From Catenulispora sp. EB89 (GTDB taxonomy: Bacteria > Actinomycetota > Actinomycetes > Streptomycetales > Catenulisporaceae): a DNA stretch of 64,000 nucleotides. Under the pieces are notes generated by a model, which had not been told where the DNA came from, did no database searches, and saw nothing but the letters and a program-made list of their open reading frames with translations. Both the position numbers and the translations under genes were made by a program. Positions 9,679 through 53,843 of this stretch are shown here, one piece after another. The stretch covers positions 1 to 64,000 of the forward strand of contig NZ_JBGCCU010000027.1 in the NCBI RefSeq assembly GCF_041261445.1, read 5' to 3'. The stretch's first letter is position 1, and every line of letters begins with the position of its first letter.

Positions 9679-10525
9679 GGACCTTCGCAGTGAGGAACCC
9701 GACCTGATCCGCCACGCCGCCGTCCTCGGCAGCCCGATCGCGCACTCGCTGTCCCCGGTCCTGCACCGGGCCGCGTACACCGCGCTCGGGCTGACCGACT
9801 GGACCTACGACGCGCACGACGTCGACGAGGCGTCGCTCCCGGACTTCCTGTCCGGCCTCGACGCCTCCTGGGCCGGCCTGTCCCTGACCATGCCCCTCAA
9901 GCGCGCGGTGATCCCCCTGCTCGACGAGGTGAGCGCGACGGCCCGCGCGGTCGAGGCGGTGAACACGGTGCTGTTCGCTGCGGACGGCTCCCGCACCGGC
10001 ACCAACACCGACGTGCCAGGCCTCGTCAACGCCCTGGCCGAACGCGCCGTGACCGAGGCCGCCTCGGCGGCGGTCCTCGGCGCCGGCGCGACCGCGTCCT
10101 CGGCCCTGTCGGCCCTGTCGGGCATCGCCAAGAGCGAGGTCGAGGTCTTCATCCGCAACCGAGCCCGCGACGCCGAAATCCACGCGATCGCCGAAGCGGT
10201 CGGCACCCCGATCCGCATCCGCGACTGGAAAGACGCCCCGGCGGCGTTCGAGCACGAACTCGTGATCAGCACCACCCCGACCGGCGCGACCGACGACCTC
10301 GCCCAGGCGGTCCCACCGACCCCCGGCACCCTCTTCGACGTGCTCTACCACCCCTGGCCCACCCCCCTGGCCGCCGCCTGGACGGCCCACGGCGGCGCGG
10401 TCCTCGGCGGCCTGGACCTGCTGGTGCACCAGGCGGTGCTGCAGGTGGAGCTGATGACCGGCCGCGCGCCGGCGCCACTGGCCGCGATGCGGGTCGCGGG
10501 GGAGGCGGCGCTTTCGGCTCGCTGA
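9650..10525 (+). CDS. aroE: Shikimate dehydrogenase
   Basis: A 291-residue NADP-dependent enzyme that reduces 3-dehydroshikimate to shikimate. The substrate-binding motif SPIAHSLSP is near residues 27-35, the catalytic lysine is K84 in LTMPLKR, the paired aspartate is D121 in GTNTDVPG, and the nucleotide-binding glycine loop is LGAGATASS. The C terminus has [10 protein letters not shown]. The only usable in-frame start is GTG at 9650, inside mltG. This gives a leader carrying a duplicated five-residue unit ([10 protein letters not shown]) from a 15-bp tandem repeat. A decayed copy of its 3' end follows at about 10572-10645. Confidence 0.92.
9668..9697 (+). repeat. 15-bp tandem duplication at the mltG/aroE junction
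   Basis: CTTCGCAGTGAGGAC at 9668-9682 is followed directly by CTTCGCAGTGAGGAA at 9683-9697. The first copy contains the mltG stop codon. Because the unit is 15 bases it adds five residues in frame to the aroE leader without a shift. Confidence 0.85.
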
Positions 10526-10571
10526 GGGGCGATCGCGGCGGCTGCTCACATCGGTGCGGCGCGATGTTGGT

Positions 10572-10645
10572 GGGATGGAGCTGATGTCCGGCCGAGTACT
10601 GGCGCCGTTGGCGGCGACGCGGAGTACTGGGAAGCAGTGCTTTCA
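10572..10645 (+). pseudogene. Decayed duplicate of the aroE 3' end
   Basis: Bases 10572-10645 align with the end of aroE (about 10446-10520) at roughly 70 percent identity with one small gap. Translated, the remnant reads MELMSGRVLAPLAA where aroE has [14 protein letters not shown]. It lies 46 bases after the aroE stop, has no upstream body, and runs into the 3' end of the leftward methyltransferase gene. It is therefore a truncated relic of a duplicated or second aroE. Its divergence means the duplication is not recent. Confidence 0.7.
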
Positions 10646-11452
10646 GCTGCTGGCCCGCACAGCGGTCACCGTGACCGTCGCGTACTCCACCACGAACTCC
10701 CCGCCGGCCGCGTCCACCTCCGCGCCGATCGCCTTCTGTAGCGCGGCTACCTTCTGGCGCGGCAGCAGCGCGTGGCCGCCGAATGTCGGGAACAGGTCCA
10801 CCCACTCGGCGCTCGTGTATGTGCGCTGCCATTCGTCGCGCCACTGGTCGGCGGGTTCGAAGCCTGCTTCGTGCAGGCGGTCGGCGGTGCTGGCCAGGAG
10901 TGGTGCGTAGATGTCCTTGCTGAACTGGGCGCCGCCGGTCTGGAAGGTCGGCATCTCCGGCCGGAGTTCGGCGTAGACCTTCGCGAACGCCGTCGCGAGG
11001 TCCGGCGGCAGCTGGAAGGCGTTCCAGAACAACGCGATCCGGCCGCCGGGTCGCACGACGCGTGCCGCCTGCGCGGCGCCCGCCACCGGATCGACCCAGT
11101 GCCAGGTCATTCCGGCGGTCAGCGTGTCGAAGACACGGCCGGCCGGGTCCCAGTCCTCGAACTTCGCGATCTCGACGCGCAAGCCGCGTTCGGCCGCGTA
11201 TGCCGCCATGCGCTTGTCCGGCTCGACGCCGGTGACCTCGCAGCCGGCGGCCTGGAACTGTCGGGCGGCGATGCCGGTGCCGCAGCCGACGTCCAGCACG
11301 GTGCGACCGGTCCGGCCGGCCACGATGCGGTCGATCAGCGCGCGCGGGTAGTCCGGCCGGGCGCGGTTGTAGCGCTCGGGGTCGTCGCCGAACGACTCGG
11401 CGATCGGCGTGCTCGGCTGCTCAGGCGGGGTGTCTCCGGCTATAGTGGTCAT
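10643..11452 (-). CDS. SAM-dependent class I methyltransferase
   Basis: A 269-residue protein with the Rossmann-like methyltransferase fold. Motif I is VLDVGCGTG near residues 56-64, the acidic residue closing strand 2 is in VTGVEPDKRM, and the post-I region has a GMTWHWVDP segment typical of the Methyltransf_11/UbiE-like group. The substrate is unknown. The ATG start lies six bases after a -10-like TAGAGT on the minus strand, so the mRNA is probably leaderless. It is divergent from a TetR regulator and shares a palindrome with it, so it is the likely target of that regulator. Confidence 0.85.
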   Translation of the reverse strand: MTTIAGDTPPEQPSTPIAESFGDDPERYNRARPDYPRALIDRIVAGRTGRTVLDVGCGTGIAARQFQAAGCEVTGVEPDKRMAAYAAERGLRVEIAKFEDWDPAGRVFDTLTAGMTWHWVDPVAGAAQAARVVRPGGRIALFWNAFQLPPDLATAFAKVYAELRPEMPTFQTGGAQFSKDIYAPLLASTADRLHEAGFEPADQWRDEWQRTYTSAEWVDLFPTFGGHALLPRQKVAALQKAIGAEVDAAGGEFVVEYATVTVTAVRASS

Positions 11453-47937: not shown

Positions 47938-48076
47938 TGGGATCGGCCGGTCCACCGGGTTAGGGACTGGCCAACATTTCAGGACATCACAAGATCTCGA
48001 ATATAAGAAGCCTTGTAGTCGATTGTTCACCGAAACGTCGCGGGAATGACATCCACGCCCGCGACAGTCTCATGCC

Positions 48077-49033
48077 GTGACCGCAACGACCGACGCCGCC
48101 ACCGCCGTCGCCGCCCCGCCCGGCCCGGCGCGCCGCAGGCCCACCCGCGACTTCCGCGCGACCCGCTGGGGCTGGGCGTACTCGGCCCCGGCCGTGCTCG
48201 TGTTCCTGGCCTTCGTGATCATCCCGACCGGGTACACGTTCTACGTCTCGCTGTGGAAGTGGAACGCGCTGAACCCGGCGCTGTCCAAGTTCAAGGGCCT
48301 GGGCAACTACACGCGGCTGTTCCAGGCGAACCAGCCGACGTTCCTGAGCAGTCTGTGGCACTCGCTGTACTTCACCGGCGCGATGGTGATCGGCGGGACC
48401 GCGATCTCGCTGGCCCTGGCCCTGCTGCTGCAGCGCGGCGGCGCGCTGCTGAACGGCACCCGGGTGGCGCTCTTCCTGCCGCACGCCACGCCGGTGATCG
48501 CCACCTCGATGATCTGGACCTGGATCTTCAACTACAAGTTCGGCCTGGCCGACTGGATCCTGCACAGCCTGCATCTGCCGACCTCGCAGTGGCTCCAGTC
48601 CTCGTCCTCGGCGATGCCCGCGGTCGTGATCTACAGCCTGTGGCATGAGGTCGGCTTCACCACCGTGGTGTTCCTCGGCGGGCTGGCGACGCTGTCCAAC
48701 GAGCTGTCGGAGGCCGCGCGGGTCGACGGCTGCTCGGGCTGGCAGGAGTTCTGGCACGTCACCTGGCACCAGCTCAAGCCGGTCACCGTCTTCGTGATCG
48801 CCATCACCGCGATCACCTCGCTGCAGGCCTTCACCCAGTTCTACCAGCTGGCCAGCGGCGGCCCGGCGTACGCCACCACGACCCTGAGCTACCTGGTCTA
48901 CCAGGAGGCCTTCCTGTTCAGCGACACCGGCTACGGCGCGGCGCTGGCCGTGGTCCTGTTCGCCATCACCGTCTTCTTCACGCTCGTCCGGCGCCGCACC
49001 GCGGCCAACGGCGAGTCGCACGCTCTCGTCTGA
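48077..49033 (+). CDS. ABC sugar transporter permease (MalF/UgpA-like)
   Basis: A 318-residue inner-membrane permease with six predicted helices. The cytoplasmic EAA loop is ELSEAARVDGCSGWQEFWHV near residues 210-229, which docks on the ATPase. It belongs to the carbohydrate uptake (CUT1) type. GTG start after a 200-base gap with the trmI terminator and an AT-rich promoter patch (AATATAAG near 48000). It is followed by the binding protein and the second permease. No ATPase gene is in the operon. Confidence 0.9.
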   Translation: MTATTDAATAVAAPPGPARRRPTRDFRATRWGWAYSAPAVLVFLAFVIIPTGYTFYVSLWKWNALNPALSKFKGLGNYTRLFQANQPTFLSSLWHSLYFTGAMVIGGTAISLALALLLQRGGALLNGTRVALFLPHATPVIATSMIWTWIFNYKFGLADWILHSLHLPTSQWLQSSSSAMPAVVIYSLWHEVGFTTVVFLGGLATLSNELSEAARVDGCSGWQEFWHVTWHQLKPVTVFVIAITAITSLQAFTQFYQLASGGPAYATTTLSYLVYQEAFLFSDTGYGAALAVVLFAITVFFTLVRRRTAANGESHALV

Positions 49034-49120
49034 TCCGCAGTACCGCACACCGAGCTCCACCTCTCGTTCCAGTTCCGCACTGCCACCGAAAACCCCTCAA
49101 ATCGGGAGACCTGAACCATC

Positions 49121-50464
49121 ATGCGCAAGCGCATCACCGCGGCCGCCGGGCTGGCCGCTCTCGCCCTCGCCACGACGGCGTGCGCCGGCGGCGGCACTTC
49201 CACGCCGAAGTCCGACGCCGGCACCTCGGCCAAGGCCGGCGGCTCCGGCACCGAGCTCGCCGTCCCCACCGGTCCGGTGACCATCACCTTCGAGGAGGCG
49301 ATGACCATCGGCACCCTGAAGCCGGCGATGGACAAGCTCGTCTCCGACTTCCAGGCGAAGTACCCGAACATCACCGTCAAGCTCCAGGGCGACCCGGACT
49401 ACGGCACGATGTACACCAAGGAGAAGGCCGAGGTGCAGGCCGGGAACGCCCCGACCATCGGCCAGGCCTACGAGAGCTGGGCCTCCTACTTCCAGTCCGC
49501 CGGCAAGCTGGTCCCGATCAGCGAGCTGGCCGGCACCGACTCCCCGGCCGAGATGTCCACGTTCTACAAGGGCATCCAGACCGACATGAAGCTGCCGGAC
49601 GGCAAGACCTGGATGTGGCCGTTCAACAAGAGCGTGCTGATCCTGTTCGCCAACGCCGACCTGCTGGCCAAGGACGGCCAGAGCGAGCCCAAGACCTGGG
49701 ACGACTACGCCAGCGTGATGAAGGCGGTCTCCACCAACGGCGTCACCGGCTCCACCATCGATCCGGGCTCGGCCACCGGCGCCACCTTCGGCACCCAGTG
49801 GTTCGAGATCCTGGCCCGGGCCAACGGCGCCACCCTGTACGACACCGACGGCACCCCGCACCTGACCGACCCCGGCGTGGTCAAGGCCCTGCAGTACATG
49901 AAGGACCTGAAGGACGCCAACGATCTGGCCACCGGCAAGAACTACCCTGGCGAGACCGCCCTGGGCGCCCAGAAGGGCGTCTTCGACATCTCCTCGGCGG
50001 CCGGCTACGGCTTCGAGAACAAGACCGTCGGCGGCAAGTTCAAGCTGGACATCACCGCGCTGCCCTCCGGCCCTTCCGGCGCCGTGAACGAGCTGACCGG
50101 CACCAACATCGTGATGTTCTCCGGGGCCAGCGCCGACCAGAAGGCCGCGGCCTGGGCCTTCATGAAGTTCATCACCAGCCCGGCCGAGCAGGCGCAGTGG
50201 GCCGCCACCTCCGGCTACCTGCCGGTGACCAGCCAGGCGCTGAGCGACCCGGTCATGCAGGCCTTCGTGGCCAAGAACCCGTACGAGACCGCGGCCGTCT
50301 CCGAGCTGGACACCGCCTTCGCGCTGCCCGGCTTCTCCTGGATCTTCAAGTGCCAGGGCTTTGAGTCCACCGCGATCCAGGAGGCCCTGGAGAACGGCAA
50401 GCAGCCCGCCGACGCCCTGAACGCCGCGCAGTCCGGCTGCGCCGCCGCGAAGGCGCAGGGGTGA
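49121..50464 (+). CDS. ABC sugar transporter solute-binding lipoprotein
   Basis: A 447-residue extracellular binding protein (SBP type 1). The signal peptide ends in LALATTACAGG, a lipobox-like site with Cys21 as lipidation residue. A Thr/Ser/Gly linker follows and then the two-lobed binding domain, with the family-like segments PVTITFEEAMT and FNKSVLILFANADLL. Likely ligands are sugars or sugar phosphates such as glycerol phosphate diesters; the sequence alone does not decide. It lies between the two permease genes, an unusual order, and its stop overlaps the GTG of the second permease. Confidence 0.9.
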   Translation: MRKRITAAAGLAALALATTACAGGGTSTPKSDAGTSAKAGGSGTELAVPTGPVTITFEEAMTIGTLKPAMDKLVSDFQAKYPNITVKLQGDPDYGTMYTKEKAEVQAGNAPTIGQAYESWASYFQSAGKLVPISELAGTDSPAEMSTFYKGIQTDMKLPDGKTWMWPFNKSVLILFANADLLAKDGQSEPKTWDDYASVMKAVSTNGVTGSTIDPGSATGATFGTQWFEILARANGATLYDTDGTPHLTDPGVVKALQYMKDLKDANDLATGKNYPGETALGAQKGVFDISSAAGYGFENKTVGGKFKLDITALPSGPSGAVNELTGTNIVMFSGASADQKAAAWAFMKFITSPAEQAQWAATSGYLPVTSQALSDPVMQAFVAKNPYETAAVSELDTAFALPGFSWIFKCQGFESTAIQEALENGKQPADALNAAQSGCAAAKAQG

Positions 50465-51333
50465 GCAAGCCCTCCGTATCCCGCGGCATGGCGGGAGGGA
50501 GCCGCGCCGGGCGTTGGGCCCGGCGCGCGCTCGCCGCCGCCATCGGCCTGGCGTTCGTCTTCCCGTTCTACTGGACGGTGGTGATCTCGCTCGGGCATCC
50601 CGGCGAGTTCAGCAACTTCCCGCCGCTGCTGGTGCCGCACTGGGACTGGTCGAACTGGTCGCGGGCCTGGCACGCGGCGCCCTGGGTGCGGCTGTTCGCG
50701 AACACCATCCTGATCGCCTCCTGCACCATGGCGCTGTGCCTGGTCACCTCGCTGCTGGCCGGGTTCGCCTTTGGCGTGCTGCGCTTCCCCGGTCGCAAGG
50801 TGCTGACGCTGGTCGTGCTCTCCGTGCTGATGATGCCCGGCACGGTGCTGATCATTCCGGACTACGTGCTGGCCAACGACCTGCACCTGCTGAACACCTA
50901 CTGGATCCAGATCATCCCGTGGGGCGCCAGCGTGTTCGGGATCTTCCTGGTCCGCCAGTTCTTCCTGACCATGCCCTCGGAGATCCTGGACGCCGCGGCG
51001 CTGGACGGCGCCTCGCGGCTGCGCTTCCTGCGCTCGATCGGCGTGCCGATGGTGCGCCCGGCGCTGGTCATCATCGCCATCAACGTGTTCCTGGGCTCCT
51101 GGAACTCGTTCCTGTGGCCGGTGATCATGACCAGCTCCAACATGGAGTCCTCCAGCACGGTGCAGCCGGTCGAGGTGGGGCTGTCCACGTTCGCCAACGC
51201 CGAGGGCACCGACTTCCCCGGCCTGGCCGCGGCGGTCACCTTCACCACGCTGCCGGTCATGGTGTTCTTCCTGCTGCTGCAGCGGCAGTTCATCCGCGGC
51301 GCGCTGTCCGCGGCCGGAGGCGTCCGTGGCTGA
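50461..51333 (+). CDS. ABC sugar transporter permease (MalG/UgpE-like)
   Basis: A 290-residue six-helix permease, partner of the one at 48077. The EAA loop is EILDAAALDGASRLRFLRSI near residues 178-197. GTG start overlaps the binding-protein stop by four bases, and the next gene (HAD family) starts eight bases before its stop, so five genes from 48077 to 53402 are probably one transcript. As no ATPase is encoded, a shared MsiK-type ATPase elsewhere in the genome would be needed. Confidence 0.9.
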   Translation: MSKPSVSRGMAGGSRAGRWARRALAAAIGLAFVFPFYWTVVISLGHPGEFSNFPPLLVPHWDWSNWSRAWHAAPWVRLFANTILIASCTMALCLVTSLLAGFAFGVLRFPGRKVLTLVVLSVLMMPGTVLIIPDYVLANDLHLLNTYWIQIIPWGASVFGIFLVRQFFLTMPSEILDAAALDGASRLRFLRSIGVPMVRPALVIIAINVFLGSWNSFLWPVIMTSSNMESSSTVQPVEVGLSTFANAEGTDFPGLAAAVTFTTLPVMVFFLLLQRQFIRGALSAAGGVRG

Positions 51334-52090
51334 TTCGAGCACGATTTCCACAAGGCCGGACTCCAGGACGCCGGACCGCCGTCCGATCCTGGTCGTGGAC
51401 TTCGACGGGACCGTCTACCGCGACGACGGTCCGGTCCGCTTCTACGCCGAGCACGCCGCCGGCAGCCTGCCGAACGAGTGGCGCGGTCGGTTCCTGGACC
51501 TGTTCGAGGCCTACCTCGAACAGGGCGTCGCCGCCGCGGACCGGGTCGCCGACGAGTCGGCGGCCGCGGTCCTGCGCAGCTCGGTCGACGCCTGGGGCGC
51601 GGCGGCCGGGCTCGCGGCGCTGTCCGGGGTCGGCCCGGCCGCGACCGAGCAGGCCTTCCTGGCCAGCCGGCAGTACATGCTGACCGCGTCCTGCCGGGTC
51701 ACGGCGGTCCCGGCGCTCGTCGAGGCCTTCGAGAAGCTGCGCGGCGACGTGCGCATCGTCCTGGCCACCAACAGCCCCGCCGGCGGCCTGGCGCCGCTGC
51801 TGGACCGGCTGGGGGTCACCCCGCTGTTCGAGGAGGTCGTCTCCGGAGCGAACAAGCCCGAGGGACTGCGGCGCTGGATCGCCGCGGAGCTGGCCGACCG
51901 GCCGGCCGCCGAGCTCTTCTCGCTCGGCGACCACTACTTCAACGAGATCGAACCCGCGATGGCGGTCGGCGCGTGCGCCGGCTACATCGACCGGTTCGGC
52001 CGCGCCGACGGCCCCGCGACGGTGATCGCCCCGGTGGTCGAGGACATCCTGCCCGGCGTCTTCGCCTGGGTTCGTGCGCTTAATTCATAG
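51326..52090 (+). CDS. HAD-family hydrolase in the sugar-transport operon
   Basis: A 254-residue HAD-fold protein. Motif I is LVVDFDGTVYRDDG near residues 22-35. The cap is helical. Motif II is in VLATNSPAG, the lysine of motif III in SGANKPEGLRRW, and motif IV in FSLGDHYFNEIEPAM. The DYFNEIEP-like segment, in place of a plain GDxxxD, is a variation. GTG start overlaps the permease by eight bases. Context suggests it dephosphorylates the imported compound, which is inference. Confidence 0.85.
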   Translation: MADSSTISTRPDSRTPDRRPILVVDFDGTVYRDDGPVRFYAEHAAGSLPNEWRGRFLDLFEAYLEQGVAAADRVADESAAAVLRSSVDAWGAAAGLAALSGVGPAATEQAFLASRQYMLTASCRVTAVPALVEAFEKLRGDVRIVLATNSPAGGLAPLLDRLGVTPLFEEVVSGANKPEGLRRWIAAELADRPAAELFSLGDHYFNEIEPAMAVGACAGYIDRFGRADGPATVIAPVVEDILPGVFAWVRALNS

Positions 52091-52109
52091 GAAGAGAACA
52101 CGTATATAC

Positions 52110-53402
52110 ATGGCAGCATCCGTCGAGTTCTGGGGCGGGGTCGGCGTCATCGGCTCCAGCAAGGTCCTGATCACCGAGGGCGACCACCGCGTCCTGCTCG
52201 ATTTCGGGCTCGACATCCCCCGAGGCACCGACTTGTTCCGGCCCCCTGTCGTGCCCAGGGCGCACCGCTATCTGGCCGACCGGCTGCGGGTCGGCGCGGC
52301 ACCGAGGCTGCCCGGCGTCTACGACCCGGCGATGGTCGAAATGGGGGACCCACTGGGGGAGGAGGGGCCGGCGACGGCGGTGTTCGTCAGCCACGCGCAC
52401 ATCGACCACTGCGGTCTGGTCGGAACCCTCAGGCCGGGAATTGAGGTTCACGCCTCCCCGGAGACCATCGCAGTGATGCGCGCGCTGAGCGCCGCCGGCG
52501 ACGGCCTGCCCGGCGGCGACCCGGACTGGCGGCCGCTGGCCGACGAGCAGCCGCTGAGGTTCGGCCCGATGACCGTGGAGCGGATCACCGTGGACCACGA
52601 CGTGCCCGGGGCCAGCGGCTACCTGGTCACCACCTCCGACGGCGTGCTGGCCTTCACCGGCGACATCCGGTTCCACGGCCGCGCCCCGGAACGTGCCTGG
52701 CGGCTGGCCGAGCGTGCTGCGGGCTGTGAGATGTTCGTCACGGAGGGTACGGCTCTGGGGCTGCCGGTGTTCCCGGGGCCGGTGCGCACCGAGGACGACG
52801 TCGTCCGGGACTTCGCCGCCGTGCTGGACGAGGCGCGCGGGGACCTGGTGCTGCTCGCGATGTACCCGCGCGACCTGGAGCGGGTCCGGGAGTTCGTCGA
52901 GGTGGCCGACGCCGCCGGGCGCCGCGTGCTCTGGGGCGACCCGGTCGCGGCCTTCCTGCGCGAGCTCGGGGTCGAGGGCGTGGTGGCCTACTCCGAGGTC
53001 GGCCTGGAGGCTCTGAAGGCCGATCCCGGGGCCTTCGTCTACCAGCCGGACCTGCGGGACCTGCGCGGCATCCCGGACCTGGCGGACCTGCCGGTCGGCG
53101 AGCGCACCGTGTGGCTGCACGCCAACGGCGAGCCGCTGGGGCCGTTCGAGTCGCGCTGGGCGCTGTTCATGGAGTGGCTGGAGGTCCTGGGCATCCCGCT
53201 GCGCCGGATCGGCTCCTTCGGCCACGCCACCGGCGACGACCTGCACACGCTGGTGCACCGGGTCGCGCCGCGGACCGTCGTCCCGATCCACACCGACGCG
53301 CCCGAGCGGCTGCATCCGGTGGCCGGCCCGACCCGGCTGATACCGGTGTTCGCCCAGCGGTACGACCTGGGCGGTCACCCGATTGAGCGAACCTGGGCCT
53401 GA
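52110..53402 (+). CDS. RNase J-like metallo-beta-lactamase-fold hydrolase
   Basis: A 430-residue MBL-fold enzyme. The zinc motif is VSHAHIDHCG near residues 92-101; HDVPGASGY, TGDIRFHG and TEGT follow in the order seen in beta-CASP nucleases such as RNase J. The C-terminal segment GHATGDDLHTLV then VVPIHTDAPERL is the RNA-specificity-type motif of that group. ATG at 52110 fits the family start; upstream in-frame codons would add an unrelated basic leader. It ends the ABC-HAD operon. Acting on RNA or on a phosphorylated small molecule are both possible. Confidence 0.85.
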   Translation: MAASVEFWGGVGVIGSSKVLITEGDHRVLLDFGLDIPRGTDLFRPPVVPRAHRYLADRLRVGAAPRLPGVYDPAMVEMGDPLGEEGPATAVFVSHAHIDHCGLVGTLRPGIEVHASPETIAVMRALSAAGDGLPGGDPDWRPLADEQPLRFGPMTVERITVDHDVPGASGYLVTTSDGVLAFTGDIRFHGRAPERAWRLAERAAGCEMFVTEGTALGLPVFPGPVRTEDDVVRDFAAVLDEARGDLVLLAMYPRDLERVREFVEVADAAGRRVLWGDPVAAFLRELGVEGVVAYSEVGLEALKADPGAFVYQPDLRDLRGIPDLADLPVGERTVWLHANGEPLGPFESRWALFMEWLEVLGIPLRRIGSFGHATGDDLHTLVHRVAPRTVVPIHTDAPERLHPVAGPTRLIPVFAQRYDLGGHPIERTWA

Positions 53403-53540: not shown

Positions 53541-53843
53541 TCAGGCCGCTTCGGCGTCCGGGCCGGCGACGACCACCTGGTCCGAGGCGCGCCGGACGTG
53601 GATGCACTCCCCGGGGCACTCTTGGGCCGAGTCGATCACCGCCAGCACCAGATCCACCGGGACCGGGACCCGGGCCTCCGGTCCGGTCAGCAACTCGGCG
53701 TCCGGGCCGTTCTTCACATAAGCGACACCGTCGATGTCGAGTTCGAACACGTCCGGTGCGTACTGGGCACAGATGCCGTCACCTGTGCACAGATCGTGAT
53801 TGATCCATACCTCTAGAGCATCCGTGTCAGTGGTAACGGTCAT
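53541..53843 (-). CDS. Small ferredoxin, [3Fe-4S]/[4Fe-4S] type
   Basis: A 100-residue electron carrier. Cluster cysteines are in [14 protein letters not shown] (Cys19 and Cys25) and in [10 protein letters not shown] (Cys76 and Cys80). The Gly/Asp at the second position of the first motif replaces a cysteine, as in the actinobacterial P450-type [3Fe-4S] ferredoxins. The body between the cysteine pairs is acidic. The ATG has GGAAA upstream and TAGCGT nine bases before it. It is divergent from arc; a role in the proteasome pathway is not known. Confidence 0.88.

Follow-up and report, generated by a model that had tools for sequence, protein, structure and literature searches.

A sugar-type importer, a predicted phosphatase and an RNase J-like enzyme in one actinomycete operon: a candidate pathway for scavenging a small phosphodiester

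What does a bacterium take up when it encodes a sugar-type ATP-binding cassette (ABC) importer in one operon with a phosphatase-like protein and a relative of RNase J? The question is raised by a locus in the actinomycete Catenulispora sp. EB89 (assembly GCF_041261445.1; 11.9 Mb in 70 contigs). The locus lies in positions 1 to 64,000 of contig NZ_JBGCCU010000027.1, a stretch of 64,000 nucleotides that we call the window. An earlier note on this DNA had proposed an operon of permease, binding lipoprotein, permease, haloacid dehalogenase (HAD) hydrolase and metallo-beta-lactamase (MBL) enzyme. The open reading frames (ORFs), their tight spacing and an order that recurs in other genomes confirm it. 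Checked by ORF and by Pfam domain, the five genes stand head to tail:

48077..49033, + strand: permA, UgpA-like permease of a CUT1 importer, 318 amino acids (PF00528, 2.9e-18)
49121..50464, + strand: lipoprotein substrate-binding protein (SBP) of the UgpB/U3GBP phosphate-ligand group, 447 amino acids (PF13416, 2.3e-36; PF01547)
50461..51333, + strand: permE, UgpE-like permease of a CUT1 importer, 290 amino acids (PF00528, 7.1e-14)
51326..52090, + strand: HAD-superfamily hydrolase, predicted cytosolic phosphatase, 254 amino acids (PF12710, 6.6e-7)
52110..53402, + strand: beta-CASP MBL of the EF2904 family, predicted phosphodiesterase/nuclease, about 430 amino acids (PF12706, 6.6e-13)

At three of the four junctions the neighbouring genes overlap or come close to it, and the SBP has the lipobox LATTAC. 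The MBL reading frame is open from 52074; the conserved protein runs from an ATG at 52110, with AGGAAGAG just before it, and this ATG is most likely the start.

Our answer to the question is graded. The ligand is quite likely a phosphodiester, judging from the sequences of the genes involved. With about even confidence, we prefer to read the operon as a pathway that scavenges a small phosphodiester. Dinucleotides, short oligoribonucleotides or cyclic nucleotides derived from RNA would be the most likely substrates. The earlier note had suggested scavenging of an oligonucleotide, a phosphodiester or a phosphosugar. Phosphodiester import is a well-supported prediction because the MBL, SBP and HAD genes occur together, because the SBP keeps the residues that hold phosphate in UgpB and because its best solved relative is a dinucleotide binder. 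The identity of the ligand, the direction of transport, the enzyme activities, the ATPase partner and the physiological role are what we infer from these comparisons.

The grouping of the genes is not due to chance. The same five-gene order is found at other loci of the genus (L025, L028) and at three loci of a sister genus (L026, L027, L029). Relatives of the MBL are rare across the phylum, where a sample of 396 genomes yielded the genome itself and four distant ones. Every one of the nine other genomes in the genus has one, as do three of four from the family. Within the genus the MBL gene is flanked by the HAD, permE and ARC genes at 9/9 loci, within the family by HAD and permE at 3/3. Streptantibioticus silvisoli was the sole closely related named genome with the operon among those returned by a scan of the genome collection. 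In its family, the Streptomycetaceae, MBL, SBP (E ≤ 1e-50) and HAD (E ≤ 1e-12) are found in the identical 23 of 249 genomes, at one locus, and the order permA-SBP-permE-HAD-MBL is kept in 20/20 loci inspected. Two such sets of 23 genomes would coincide by random draw with P ~6e-33, though the genomes are related and not independent. The co-occurrence check that the earlier note had called for shows HAD and MBL to be tied to the transporter. A minority of actinomycetes carry the operon and appear to inherit it as one block. In two copies (L164 in genome G1184 and L165 in G1208) the MBL gene lies in pieces across different frames, as does the HAD gene of G1208, which suggests decay or sequencing error.

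The linkage extends to a second phylum. Of 395 genomes sampled from the order to which Enterococcus canintestini belongs, 88 have the MBL, and at 31 of 33 Lactobacillales loci inspected an importer homologous to the window's, with an ATPase of its own, lies within a few kb of it (one of these importers is without a recognised permA). At 18 of the 33 loci a metallophosphoesterase/5_nucleotid_C protein stands in place of the HAD. In another member of the Bacillota (L201) a HAD-MBL pair faces a divergent permA-SBP-permE set. Here the MBL, the SBP and the two permeases are nearer to the actinomycete than to the Lactobacillales genes, which suggests that the gene set moved together. A tree built from 48 MBLs splits (100/99) a bacterial clade of 30 rows, 25 of them importer-linked, from archaeal and other relatives that have no importer. 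One database record stands apart: OL539428.1 (25885-47979), labelled E. coli plasmid pCTX-M-55 in PLSDB, holds Enterococcus-like chromosomal genes (LiaFSR, KtrC) and the operon, and encodes an MBL with 99% identity to the one in a genome from the Enterococcus order (G728). The record is probably mislabelled or contaminated.

What the importer carries can be approached through its SBP. In the PDB, the window SBP matches the 7c0f-7c1b series best (7c14/7c0f, E 6e-35), with 124 bits against 58 for UgpB, and with an Enterococcus-type SBP as query the same series again comes first (113 bits, the next match 68). We take this series to be U3GBP of Thermus thermophilus, a binder of uridylyl-3'-5'-phosphoguanosine. 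One paper describes U3GBP as a T. thermophilus SBP for a uridylyl-guanosine dinucleotide and places it beside UgpB (PMC12718374, citing Chandravanshi 2021). In UgpB the phosphate is held by Tyr64, Ser143, Ser266 and Tyr342, and the glycerol is contacted by Glu88, Gly303, Arg393 and Trp188/191 (PMC12718374).

We transferred these residues through E. coli UgpB onto 57 operon SBPs, with MalE for comparison. The phosphate quartet Tyr/Ser/Ser/Tyr is kept in 57/57 (some have Thr for one Ser), and MalE has none of it. Both Trp of the UgpB clamp are gone in all 57. The Arg is gone in 26/26 actinobacterial and 14/14 Enterococcus-type SBPs and kept in 9/17 more distant Lactobacillales SBPs; its replacements are Gln, Glu, Gly or Thr. 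The Gly is kept, as is the Glu in 24 of the 26 actinobacterial proteins. The window SBP therefore has the two Tyr and two Ser typical of the phosphate-ligand group formed by UgpB, glycerophosphocholine (GPC)-binding proteins and U3GBP, without the Trp clamp and glycerol Arg of UgpB itself, and it scores 56 bits against the NCBIfam UgpB equivalog, whose cut-off is 411. With U3GBP it has in common the quartet and a PFNKS signature; what separates them is an identity of only ~25% and the Arg, which is replaced in the window SBP. Because the quartet is kept, the Trp clamp lost and the Arg mostly lost, the ligand very likely bears a phosphate and is probably something other than glycerol-3-phosphate (G3P). 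The SBP is thus predicted to bind a phosphate ligand and not a plain sugar.

The earlier note had called the importer ATPase-less. No ATPase gene stands nearby beside the five genes, so the description is correct for the operon. As an argument for an unusual system it is a weak point, since the genome encodes candidate importer ATPases elsewhere, which match the ATPase of the Enterococcus operon at 43-44%. Actinobacterial importers of this kind normally share an MsiK-type ATPase, and the missing gene is probably explained in this ordinary way.

The second line of evidence comes from the MBL. Its AlphaFold (AF2) model is confident (pLDDT, the predicted local distance difference test, 90.4). The best fold match is EF2904 of Enterococcus faecalis (2az4, Z 43.0, 2.5 A over 397 residues), a hypothetical protein that is a full-length homologue (E 1.5e-41 by sequence), and RNase J structures come next (Z ~33). 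Motifs 1-4 and A-C are intact: Asp32, HxHxDH 96-101, His164, Asp186, Glu213, His373 and His395, numbered along a model of 431 residues, are invariant in 60/60 homologues. A His in motif C is typical of RNA-specific beta-CASP members, as opposed to DNA-specific ones (PMC3095777), and His395 is this RNA-type residue. By its motifs the MBL belongs to the RNA-type beta-CASP family and is predicted to be a phosphodiesterase or nuclease. It shares with RNase J, TTHA0252 and CPSF73 the fold across the full MBL and beta-CASP core and all catalytic motifs. However, its identity to RNase J is ~16-21% and it stands in an operon with an importer. It is not an RNase J orthologue, because it has no RNase J C-terminal domain, scores far under the NCBIfam RNase J cut-offs (39 of 820 bits and 36 of 400 bits) and comes from a genome that has a separate RNase J (G000:C2).

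EF2904 itself is mentioned only as a hypothetical protein in the open literature covered by our limited open-access search. Its neighbour in number, EF2903, is annotated as a sugar-type ABC substrate-binding lipoprotein and was found in the surface proteome (PMC3059304), and the adjacent gene numbers fit the gene order of the enterococcal operon. Enterococcal operons differ from that of the window in having an ATPase gene and a nucleotidase-like gene and no HAD.

The third line of evidence is the phosphatase slot. The HAD has the motif set of a phosphatase (DxDGT in motif I, Ser/Thr in II, Lys in III, acidic residues in IV), and its catalytic residues are invariant in 18 homologues (D25FDGT with D25 and D27, S150, K177, G201-D202). 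PADLOC gave no defence-system match for the HAD or the MBL. In the Lactobacillales the HAD's functional slot is taken by the nucleotidase-like protein, whose nearest solved relatives are the full-length 5'-nucleotidase-family proteins 4q7f/3qfk, followed by YfkN and CpdB, and whose best NCBIfam models are 2',3'-cyclic-nucleotide 2'-phosphodiesterases (under cut-off). Its nearest named kin, next to the 5'-nucleotidase-family proteins, are thus CpdB and YfkN, which are 2',3'-cyclic-nucleotide phosphodiesterases/3'-nucleotidases. CpdB is periplasmic, whereas the Lactobacillales protein looks cytosolic and has, by eye, no signal peptide; the actinomycetes have the HAD instead.

These results suggest how the system could work. 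The lipoprotein SBP would capture the ligand by its phosphate. Energy for its import through the two CUT1-type permeases would come from a shared ATPase that another part of the genome encodes. Once the ligand is in the cytosol, the RNase J-like MBL would cut the phosphodiester, and the HAD would then take off the phosphate, leaving a nucleoside (or an alcohol) and phosphate. We give an RNA origin of the ligand an even chance because three independent pointers lead there: the kinship with U3GBP, the RNA-type beta-CASP enzyme and the nucleotidase-like partner. The most specific version falls somewhat short of that: a dedicated RNA-fragment-eating pathway whose ABC importer takes up dinucleotides or short oligoribonucleotides and shares an operon with a specialised nuclease of RNase J type and a phosphatase acting on nucleotides, the whole having spread as a cassette across Actinomycetota and Bacillota.

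One could also argue that the operon scavenges glycerophosphodiesters, such as GPC, glycerophosphoethanolamine or teichoic-acid fragments, with the MBL in the role of UgpQ and the HAD as a glycerol-phosphate phosphatase. E. coli UgpBAECQ likewise combines a CUT1 importer that has the phosphate quartet with an intracellular phosphodiesterase of its own, and it is the Ugp models that give the permeases and the SBP their highest scores. These scores stay under the NCBIfam cut-offs for the permeases too (permA 107 bits against 335 for UgpA, permE 120 against 297 for UgpE). UgpQ is a GDPD-family (glycerophosphodiester phosphodiesterase) enzyme and not a beta-CASP MBL, and Ugp has its own ATPase and no HAD. 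Related importers in proteobacteria lean the same way. Plasmids of Pantoea, Acuticoccus, Nitratireductor and Chelatococcus (L220-L223) carry UgpB-group importers with the phosphate quartet. Those of Pantoea and Nitratireductor end with calcineurin-like phosphoesterases, and that of Acuticoccus adjoins a GDPD-family gene. The Nitratireductor esterase is closest to Rv0805 and to GpdQ, which we take to be PDB 2zo9/3d03. These importers probably belong to further phosphodiester-scavenging operons, to judge by gene content. An importer with an intracellular phosphodiesterase of varying superfamily looks like a general design, in which the beta-CASP enzyme fills the slot here. The proteobacterial pairings therefore strengthen the case for a phosphodiester of whichever kind.

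Regulation was a further point of comparison. The Pho box of Firmicutes has the form TTHACA-N5-TTHACA. Pho-box-like repeats of this form precede 8/54 starts of Lactobacillales operon transcription units against 1/148 controls (p=1.2e-4, clustered in some lineages), a value that is optimistic because the operons are related. Such sites would fit phosphate starvation, under our preferred reading as well as under the glycerophosphodiester one. A Streptomyces-type PHO box before the actinobacterial operons was not above shuffles, and a PurR-type box before the Lactobacillales operons gave no convincing match. Glycerophosphodiesters nevertheless seem unlikely to us, for the following reasons. First, all actinobacterial and Enterococcus-type SBPs have lost Arg397 of UgpB, and 0/57 SBPs have the Trp clamp. 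Second, beta-CASP enzymes with a motif C His are described as RNA enzymes (PMC3095777). Third, U3GBP is closer to the SBP than UgpB is.

Several observations weigh against an RNA-derived ligand or weaken its support. U3GBP keeps the Arg that most operon SBPs have lost. SBPs at ~25% identity can differ in ligand, and G3P and GPC are among the ligands of UgpB-type proteins. A structure prediction of the SBP from three sequences (pLDDT 40) gave no usable pocket. The proteobacterial esterases, one of them near the glycerophosphodiesterase GpdQ and Rv0805, allow a glycerophosphodiester. The genomes behind the co-occurrence have common ancestry. The operons compared for the Pho box are not independent, and for GTTCACC repeats 11 nt apart the best site in the window matches at 10/14, which 9% of shuffles equal.

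A sugar or oligosaccharide with a phosphate or phosphodiester bridge, such as a cell-wall or capsule fragment that the MBL and HAD would trim, is improbable. CUT1 importers mostly carry carbohydrates, the SBP falls into general sugar-SBP Pfam families and the HAD profile matches beta-phosphoglucomutase and sugar-phosphate phosphatases in the PDB. However, these HAD matches are weak, mixed and unspecific, no glycosidase or sugar kinase was recognised beside the operon in the annotated loci, and the Lactobacillales partner is nucleotidase-like. It is very improbable that the importer carries a plain sugar and that the HAD and MBL are cargo unrelated to it or housekeeping genes such as an mRNA-decay RNase: archaeal and other MBL relatives do exist without an importer and the RNase J elsewhere in the genome would let the MBL be a second, specialised RNase, but the MBL/SBP/HAD co-occurrence is perfect, the linkage holds over two phyla and through the rearrangement in L201, the importer-linked MBLs lie in one supported clade (25/30 rows) and the SBP has the phosphate quartet.

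How new would a scavenging pathway for a small phosphodiester be? The parts are of known kinds. Their combination and its conservation across phyla appear undescribed, as our search, limited to open access, found no description of the operon. Operons of an importer and a phosphodiesterase are known (Ugp with UgpQ), but our search met none in which the enzyme is of the beta-CASP, RNase J type. Should the ligand be an RNA fragment, the operon would encode a physiological importer for dinucleotides together with a nuclease of its own. U3GBP, so far a crystallographic dinucleotide binder, would gain a cellular setting, and EF2904, a structure without explained function since 2005, would gain a role. 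Lactic acid bacteria and soil actinomycetes would have a route from environmental RNA to nucleosides and phosphate.

Upstream of the operon lies one further conserved element:

47968..47988, + strand: 21-nt element TGGCCAACATTTCAGGACATC, ~90-110 nt upstream of permA, the first gene; single site in the 11.9 Mb genome

By eye, an element resembling TGGCCAGCCTTTCAGGATTTCACA can be recognised ahead of permA in the sister genus as well as at most Streptomycetaceae loci (L148-L167). Many Streptomycetaceae copies (L153-L167) also have CTATCTACGCGCGTTTCACTC directly upstream of the first gene. It is half of the palindrome CTACGCGCGTAG, which lies farther upstream in L148, L150, L152 and L166.

The flanking genes trmI and arc, whose conserved neighbourhood the operon was said to interrupt, flank it in this genus only; in the sister genus the operon sits elsewhere. 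A small ferredoxin-like gene (53541-53843, - strand) separates the operon from the gene for the ARC ATPase.

Distant relatives of the MBL keep other company. No importer was found near the Thermus and Rhodothermus plasmid matches, whose neighbours are toxin-antitoxin, CRISPR, restriction or defence genes, nor near those of Rhizobium phaseoli and Ochrobactrum. For one locus (L202) gene sizes had raised the suspicion of a phosphotransferase system (PTS) link, which we dropped when the neighbours turned out to be a patatin, a lone PTS IIB and YdjC. In a member of the Bathyarchaeota (L041) a TrmI-like methyltransferase gene (10149-11051) lies ~1 kb from a solitary MBL relative; this echo of the window's trmI neighbour is probably a coincidence. 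In small-genome actinobacteria (L022, 11922-16870) a solitary relative stands near genes for a PASTA Ser/Thr kinase and a penicillin-binding protein.

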